Positions 52,224 to 52,720 of a stretch of 64,000 nucleotides of DNA are shown one piece after another (position 1 is the stretch's first letter; each line of letters opens with the position of its first letter). The translations under genes and the position numbers were made by a program. Below the pieces are notes generated by a model. The model was not told where the DNA came from and ran no database searches. It worked only from the letters and a program-made list of their open reading frames with translations. The stretch is from Haloprofundus salinisoli (GTDB lineage: Archaea; Halobacteriota; Halobacteria; Halobacteriales; Haloferacaceae). Location of the stretch: NCBI RefSeq assembly GCF_020097815.1, contig NZ_CP083663.1, positions 1,612,001-1,676,000 of the forward strand, in the 5' to 3' direction.

Positions 52224-52353
52224 CGACTACTCGTAGACGCGTCGGTGACTAATAGGCATCTCTTCGCGGAATTTGCTGGACGCGCGTCCAGTTCCGCGAA
52301 ACGCTATCTTGAAGTGTTCCCGTCCGGTATTTTTGGTGCACGCGACGCAGTGA

Positions 52354-52424
52354 GCGCCGATGGTCCAATGGTAGGACAGTGGCTTCCCAAGCCACCGGTC
52401 CGGGTTCGATTCCCGGTCGGCGCA
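52354..52424 (+). tRNA. tRNA-Gly (CCC)
   Basis: A 71-base cloverleaf. The acceptor stem is GCGCCGA/TCGGCGC, the anticodon arm GTGGC-TTCCCAA-GCCAC gives CCC, and the T arm is CCGGG-TTCGATT-CCCGG. The discriminator is A and no CCA is encoded. Its last 22 bases are repeated downstream, marking it as an integration target. Confidence 0.95.
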
Positions 52425-52524
52425 TAACCGCTGTGAGCGCACGCGAATAGCGTGTTTTTGCGACGGGAATCCGAACCCTGCTAGTCGAAGCGTTCGAGCG
52501 CAGCGAGAACGACCGTCTGGCTTC

Positions 52525-52546
52525 GGTTCGATTCCCGGTCGGCGCA
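52525..52546 (+). repeat. Att-like copy of the tRNA-Gly 3' end
   Basis: GGTTCGATTCCCGGTCGGCGCA, the last 22 bases of the tRNA-Gly gene (52403-52424), recurs exactly here, 100 bases after the tRNA end. It lacks the 5' half of a tRNA. This is the pattern of an attachment-site repeat left by an integrated element. Confidence 0.8.
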
Positions 52547-52597
52547 CTTCATCTGGTCGTTTACCGACCGTCGTTCACCTCGCTTCACTCGGTGAAC

Positions 52598-52611
52598 TCC
52601 CGGTCGGCGCA
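52598..52611 (+). repeat. Second partial copy of the tRNA-Gly 3' end
   Basis: The last 14 bases of the tRNA (TCCCGGTCGGCGCA) occur a third time. TTCACC (52574-52579) and GGTGAA (52591-52596) form an inverted repeat just before it. This suggests repeated integration or excision at the same site. Confidence 0.7.
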
Positions 52612-52720
52612 GTTTTGTCGAACACCGTCGCCATCTCGGTGGAGAGTCCGTCTACCGCGGGGTCCTGGTCGCGGGACTCGGTCATCCGCTCGTCCGTGCG
52701 CTTCGACGCGTTCCGCGCCG

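Follow-up and report, generated by a model that had tools for sequence, protein, structure and literature searches.

Why does the end of a single tRNA gene stand three times in a row in a haloarchaeal chromosome? The window, that is, the whole stretch of 64,000 nucleotides analysed here, comes from the Haloprofundus salinisoli genome (3.42 Mb in 3 contigs), and its gene for tRNA-Gly(ccc) occupies positions 52354-52424 of the plus strand. The last 22 nt of this gene (52403-52424) recur at 52525-52546 and the last 14 nt at 52598-52611, on the same strand and with zero mismatches, as the first-pass annotation had reported. Archaeal viruses and plasmids favour tRNA tails as docking sites, and the copies had been read as footprints of such an element, since lost. 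Our analysis indicates that these repeats are probably part of a family of folded cassettes rather than scars of a lost virus. On balance, we favour a class-wide family of DNA hairpin cassettes whose members come and go through recombination at the tRNA tail.

The tail copies are not a product of chance. Shuffling the window 100 times with dinucleotides preserved never produced the 22-mer, even with up to three mismatches allowed. The 14-mer with up to two mismatches has 11 matches in the window against 3.0 expected, and its exact matches are three, the tRNA tail and the two copies. In the whole genome, the last 20 nt of the tail occur exactly only in the tRNA itself and in the 22-nt copy. Together with the swapped-tail controls given below, the shuffles rule out a chance origin. 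Every copy at the locus (52354-52611) ends at the discriminator base of the tRNA, as att repeats do at the tRNA 3' end.

Beyond what had been noted before, each tail copy forms the 3' arm of a hairpin. The 122 nt directly behind the tRNA gene (52425-52546, plus strand) form a class I cassette, composed of a leader hairpin followed by a long palindromic hairpin. The 3' arm of the latter is the 22-nt copy, which spans the T arm to the discriminator base, and its 5' arm is an inverted T arm, GGGAATCCGAACC (52465-52477), predicted by folding to pair, apart from a single bulged base, with the tail copy. The inner part resembles AGTCGCAGC ... GACCGTCT, flanking a variable helix. It includes the conserved class Ia hairpin (52473-52529; internal motif AGTCG / GACCGTCT), which scores 77.4 bits with our model R1, for which it was itself a training sequence. 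The hairpin is closed by the cap GA-GC-GCA-GC-GA (52496-52506), with a GNA triloop comparable to that of extra-stable DNA mini-hairpins. The following 65 nt (52547-52611, plus strand) form a class II cassette with arms at 52564-52579 and 52591-52607, delimited by folding, covariation and a match to model R2 (again a training sequence). The final 14 nt of the tail make up its 3' arm, and the 5' arm is mostly their complement. Predicted folding energies are -41.1 kcal/mol for 52455-52546 (z -2.9), -54.0 kcal/mol for the complete class I unit (z -2.7) and -22.4 kcal/mol for class II (z -3.1). We consider it fairly probable that 52425-52546 and 52547-52611 are two members of a family of cassettes of about 60-180 nt, often in tandem, located behind tRNA genes.

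Equivalent copies are present behind many other tRNA genes, which rules out a scar unique to tRNA-Gly(ccc). We searched for copies of the last 22 nt of each tRNA, with up to four mismatches, within 500 nt downstream of the gene. Such a copy follows 15 of the 51 tRNA genes found by the Rfam tRNA model in the Haloprofundus genome (8 exact) and 23 of 41 (15 exact) in G085, a genome from another family of the same order picked for its many model matches. None follows the 37 tRNAs taken, out of 50, from G174, which is kin at the phylum level only. When tails were swapped between tRNAs over the same stretches, copies were found in 5 of 2398, 3 of 1558 and 1 of 1232 comparisons, respectively. Upstream of the tRNAs, where neighbouring tRNA genes were left unmasked, the counts are 3/51, 0/41 and 4/37. 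Among tRNA-Gly(ccc) genes linked to nadE, an exact copy of 13 nt or longer is present at 21 of 32 loci. We defined a unit as starting with the first base behind a tail and stopping where the following tail copy stops. Predicted tRNAs that contain long 'introns' were set aside, as were, in one unit set, repeats of at least 40 nt and units longer than 260 nt. So defined, a unit ends with the sequence from the T arm to the discriminator base, or with the last 13-16 nt, of the preceding tRNA, and it contains an inverted copy of part of this tail that generates the long hairpin. The same plan is repeated at successive tRNA genes of G085, and the longest array seen, behind a tRNA-Gly of this genome (L237), has five R1 matches within 1 kb.

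The cores of these units are related to each other. When each unit is compared with those at the other tRNAs of its genome, the identity to its closest counterpart is at least 0.7 for 14 of 16 units in the Haloprofundus genome, 38 of 39 in G085 and 20 of 21 in G001, a second genome of the genus; shuffled units reach this value 0, 4 and 2 times, respectively. Within one genome, cores behind different tRNAs can be up to 94% identical despite different tails. As MAFFT aligned the outer stems poorly and RNAalifold then returned six inner pairs only, we instead used a core of 57 nt whose structure was written by hand. The resulting model R1, built from 16 units, ends at GGTTC, i.e. before the tRNA-specific part. 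At E ≤ 0.001, all seven R1 matches in the Haloprofundus genome (three of them training sequences) are found 49-203 nt downstream of a tRNA and share its strand; an eighth (L174, E 0.0011) does not lie behind a tRNA. Model R2 for class II gives eight matches at the same threshold, of which six lie behind a tRNA, a seventh in an array displaced by the element integrated at tRNA-Gly(tcc), and an eighth (C1:1514695, L193, E 4e-5) with no tRNA nearby. Eight weaker R1 or R2 matches of this genome were viewed by eye: L196 represents a unit in degraded form downstream of tRNA-Val, and the seven for which no tRNA was credited (L174, L175, L177, L178, L193, L195 and L197) were treated as chance matches.

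The family is spread over the whole class. At E ≤ 1e-5, R1 matches are present in 139 of 145 haloarchaeal genomes, with up to 32 matches per genome. In each of the 29 best-scoring genomes the top match lies behind a tRNA, as identified on the same strand by ARAGORN in 28 cases and by Rfam (a 118-nt tRNA) for L207. In a sample of the phylum, 31 of 196 genomes have R1 matches and all 31 are labelled as belonging to the same order or nearer; of the 165 without a match, 2 are listed to family or order, 18 to phylum only and 145 are unlisted, and the search filters miss weak matches. Judging from a single weak R2 match (E 0.0076) in 32 loci of G085 and 28 of G174, class II seems to be of restricted occurrence. 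Only tRNA exceeds the Rfam gathering score in window positions 52300-52700 and 16 loci, so that a known RNA family was ruled out there. No description of these units was found in a literature search that left most subscription journals outside. These palindromic tRNA-tail cassettes are apparently a widespread haloarchaeal family that has not been described before.

Units match the tRNA that they follow. The 17 nt after the R1 match, compared as the best of four end trims, are identical to the tail of the unit's own tRNA in 23 of 33 units and differ by at most two mismatches in 30; the three others are degraded, with 7-9 mismatches of 17. For the inverted arm, compared with 39-46 tails in a test that set aside units with more than two mismatches, the outcome is only moderately clear: the own tRNA ranks best in 7 of 33 units and among the top three in 16. 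The tails of tRNA-Gly(ccc) themselves vary by genus (GGTTCGATT in Haloprofundus, GGTTCAATT in Haloferax), and the copies mostly vary along with them. The match is not always perfect, as one Gly copy of Halogranum rubrum and one tRNA-Thr copy of G001 deviate from their tRNA in the T loop. Judged from these sequences, the core family appears to have spread among tRNA genes, with its ends fitted to each of them. A search of plasmids with one 101-nt unit gave two weak matches, one of them inside a tRNA gene on a Haloarcula halophila plasmid (NZ_CP119561.1, L229). Here, a unit core lies within an apparent tRNA-Cys gene, so identified from its anticodon and recognized by Rfam as tRNA at 1427-1569, and splits the T arm, which suggests that the T loop is the junction of unit and tRNA. 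Upstream of a gene with a TROVE domain, the same plasmid carries a dense tRNA array, in which Rfam recognizes 14 genes and ARAGORN 17.

Comparison of relatives shows that the spacing behind tRNA-Gly(ccc) differs between them; an identical arrangement everywhere, the outcome that the first-pass annotation had named as refuting its own reading, was not found. The array adjacent to nadE contains up to four copies, and unit order, compared by eye, varies in Haloferax, Halogranum and Haloprofundus; in Haloferax prahovense (L046) the array contains N, and the unit number may be an assembly artefact. Between the H. salinisoli genome and G001, we could pair 37 tRNAs, setting aside 10 of the 47 of G001 that had no clear partner. 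Eighteen pairs have a copy (at most two mismatches) in at least one genome, and ten of these in one genome only; for at least three of the ten (Lys-ctt, Val and Met), the other genome carries a degraded unit. Filled and empty sites could be aligned in register, to within 1 nt, at three of the six loci tested, out of 11 unequal loci in all: Pro and Leu-caa, filled in G001, and Gly-ccc, which lies outside the 37 pairs and is filled in the H. salinisoli genome. Their flanks score 22, 46 and 43 versus 8, 6 and 5, with matches starting 2, 25 and 8 nt in, respectively, and Arg-tcg, Thr and Glu-ttc gave no flank match between filled and empty site. The 122-bp Gly-ccc unit is absent as a whole from three genomes of the genus (G001, G002 and G004), and the flanks there line up in register with at most 1 nt of deviation (empty-site scores of 35 for G002 and 34 for G004). 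The flank in H. marisrubri, whose NAD synthase shares 91% identity with the one encoded in the window, matches the empty site of G001 from its first base (score 49). The proposal of the first-pass annotation is thus borne out in part, as the tail duplications are genuine and entire units delimited by the copies are gained or lost; its claim that the copies are the footprints of a larger lost element was not supported.

The Nmad3-domain gene (PF18754; 52721-53455) behind the array and the genes that follow had been proposed as cargo of such an element. In other genera, however, they belong to the normal surroundings of nadE: the Nmad3 gene has relatives at 13 of 68 nadE loci and the acyltransferase-like gene at 24, and the cargo reading was rejected (the Nmad3 label is from Pfam; the others are our own). 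A genuine integrated element is present elsewhere in the same genome, at tRNA-Gly(tcc) (L166, C1:370000-381000). It is 5.5 kb long, has a 42-nt tRNA repeat 5.5 kb away, and encodes a tyrosine integrase (Phage_integrase PF00589, E 1e-15), an alpha/beta hydrolase and a molybdopterin-oxidoreductase. The 42-nt repeat is followed by a class I unit and, after it, by a class II unit whose end has decayed. As this array stands intact behind the element, element and cassettes are distinct. The integrase family of L166, the only one sought, has relatives in six of the 68 nadE loci, none of them near tRNA-Gly(ccc). Four are directly behind tRNA-Thr(ggt), a neighbour at this locus (L058, L068, L081 and L085), one precedes tRNA-Thr(ggt) (L043), and in L055 no tRNA was found with it. 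Likewise, the 32 nadE-linked tRNA-Gly(ccc) loci, over spans of 5.1-7.8 kb (74 bp in L068), contain no full relative of this integrase near tRNA-Gly, setting aside a 30-aa match in L100 that overlaps the tRNA gene itself. They also contain no distant tail repeat, except in L100, where another complete tRNA-Gly gene lies at a distance of 2.2 kb. The att-like repeats of the locus enclose short spacers, and neither between them nor in relatives, for one integrase family and these 32 loci, was an integrase or element found. Near C1:2410108 in the H. salinisoli genome, the flank of tRNA-Glu(ttc), with no cassette directly behind it, resembles by eye the start of an integrase gene.

In the conserved hairpin, the bases of the two arms change together. 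The 95 sources used here yielded 69 distinct R1 matches (a few being training sequences, in an alignment fitted to the model). Standard pairs fill 93.8% of their 1250 pair cells, and covariation is 0.334, against 0.112 after shuffling and at most 0.064 in slid controls. In class II, two-sided changes occur at 13 of 14 pairs (19 sequences). The cap form GA-RC-NNN-GY-GA is present in 83 of 159 unit strings, which are partly redundant because some are one unit cut differently, versus about one expected from shuffles; its loop is a GNA triloop in 57 of the 83, four further strings have a four-base loop, and 72 of the 159 have neither form. GNA and GNNA loops that sit on two or more G-C pairs are described, in the passages of PMC4686876 that treat them, as extraordinarily stable in DNA.

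Several explanations could account for such structures. An RNA element transcribed together with the pre-tRNA, as a trailer, a terminator or a decoy for 3' processing or other tRNA-binding enzymes, would agree with the position of the units directly behind the tRNA and on its strand, with copies that stop at the mature 3' end, with the T runs seen by eye in many leaders and flanks, and with the strong folds (z about -3). A fold selected in a transcript should nevertheless favour G-U. In the inner stem, which is not derived from the tRNA, we counted 831 Watson-Crick, 13 G-T, 19 A-C and 44 other cells, and in class II 230, 7, 9 and 15, respectively; an excess of G-T over A-C, as tolerated in structured RNA, is absent. 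In contrast, the acceptor and T stems of tRNAs from the H. salinisoli genome, G085 and G001 have G-T:A-C ratios of 18:1 and 35:0 (53:1 combined), leaving out tRNAs with fewer than 5/7 acceptor or 3/5 T-stem standard pairs. We therefore infer that the palindrome is maintained at the DNA level, through a function as cruciform or single-strand hairpin or through palindrome correction. This argument falls short of proof, as misaligned cells would also inflate A-C. The prevalence of the DNA-stable triloop and the variable presence of units between congeners also speak against an RNA element, which we regard as unlikely. More generally, the G-T:A-C ratio offers a simple test telling DNA-level from RNA-level palindromes.

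A non-autonomous transposon, moved by a transposase with a preference for tRNA tails and later homogenized with the tRNA, would fit the palindromic form, the occurrence of related cores behind several tRNAs of a genome and the number of matches per genome. REP/BIME elements and the MITEs of haloarchaea are likewise short palindromic intergenic repeats with many copies per genome; unlike the units, neither are known to be tied to tRNA tails or matched to a neighbouring gene. The 29 top matches and the seven R1 matches of the H. salinisoli genome all lie behind tRNAs, one R2 match of that genome being without a tRNA, and both arms tend towards the local tRNA. Neither a transposase nor a terminal repeat came to our attention in passing, and this explanation is improbable. 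At the tyrT locus of E. coli, tandem repeats behind the tRNA gene each carry the last ~19 bp of tRNA-Tyr. They resemble the units in their tandem arrangement, but are known from one locus and are not known to form a family behind many tRNAs or to carry tailored palindromes. A similarly low probability attaches to scars left by integrase-borne viruses or plasmids that were once inserted at the tRNA tail. In their favour, the sources describe archaeal integrated elements with direct repeats of the tRNA 3' part (PMC3119063; PMC8371274), and a 22-nt tRNA duplication, the same length as here, marks a Haloquadratum walsbyi prophage (PMC3119063); integrase genes do occur behind tRNAs, both in the H. 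salinisoli genome and next to tRNA-Thr in four nadE loci. In such elements, unlike in the units, the distal copy is kilobases off and usually accompanied by an integrase, and the passages devoted to them describe no shared hairpin (PMC3119063; PMC8371274). A conserved covarying hairpin in nearly all haloarchaeal genomes, behind many different tRNAs, is not expected of a scar, and the cassette array is separate from the 42-nt repeat of the real element. The exact core pattern, which captures 23 of the 29 top loci and 27 of 75 R1 matches, has no match in viral_contigs, and the 101-nt unit has none in phages. As the core is common to many loci, the scar reading is largely refuted.

Under the recombining-cassette reading, the tRNA tail would be the fixed target of the cassettes, recombination at the tail repeats would lead to the gain and loss of units, and recombination or conversion would keep the copies matched to the tRNA. 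The fold, maintained in DNA as a cruciform or single-strand hairpin, may be acted upon by a putative recombinase or repair enzyme, in the way that IntI acts on folded attC sites. In the sections of PMC2727003 on these sites, attC are imperfect palindromes of 57-142 nt that fold as single-stranded DNA. By eye, the folds of the units look like these sites, which are palindromes with an unpaired spacer, bulged bases and a variable terminal structure (PMC2727003); the tandem arrangement of cassettes and the one fixed target site also correspond. The units lack the conserved R'/R'' heptamer boxes of attC, as their outer arms are T arms that differ between tRNAs, and, in contrast to integron cassettes, no gene was seen in them. 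Given the missing boxes, we would say by analogy that the cassettes work like attC sites, not that they are members of this group. Insertion behind a new tRNA would also require both arms to be refitted to it, a step that known attC recombination does not include and that speaks against the cassette reading. Presence and absence of units could, moreover, arise by deletion alone, the movement of units being our interpretation. In haloarchaea, DNA between short direct repeats has been reported to be lost, leaving one copy (PMC3119063), which fits the empty sites. Such deletion could account for the losses of cassettes; gains require another process, and the hairpin, the tailoring and the spread would not be explained by it. 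That a dedicated recombinase stands behind the cassettes is only a tentative suggestion, with the chances rather against it. We would be similarly doubtful of its full version, an integron-like system free of cargo in which a host recombinase moves GNA-capped single-stranded or cruciform hairpins at tRNA tails and rewrites both arms.

With a cassette family in 139 of 145 haloarchaeal genomes, short tRNA duplications alone do not prove past integration. These observations raise the questions of which enzyme would move and tailor the cassettes, and whether cassettes could serve integrases as decoys or hot spots. In Haloferax gibbonsii (L047, 10359-10530), two identical tRNA-Thr genes stand 28 nt apart and are followed by tail copies.
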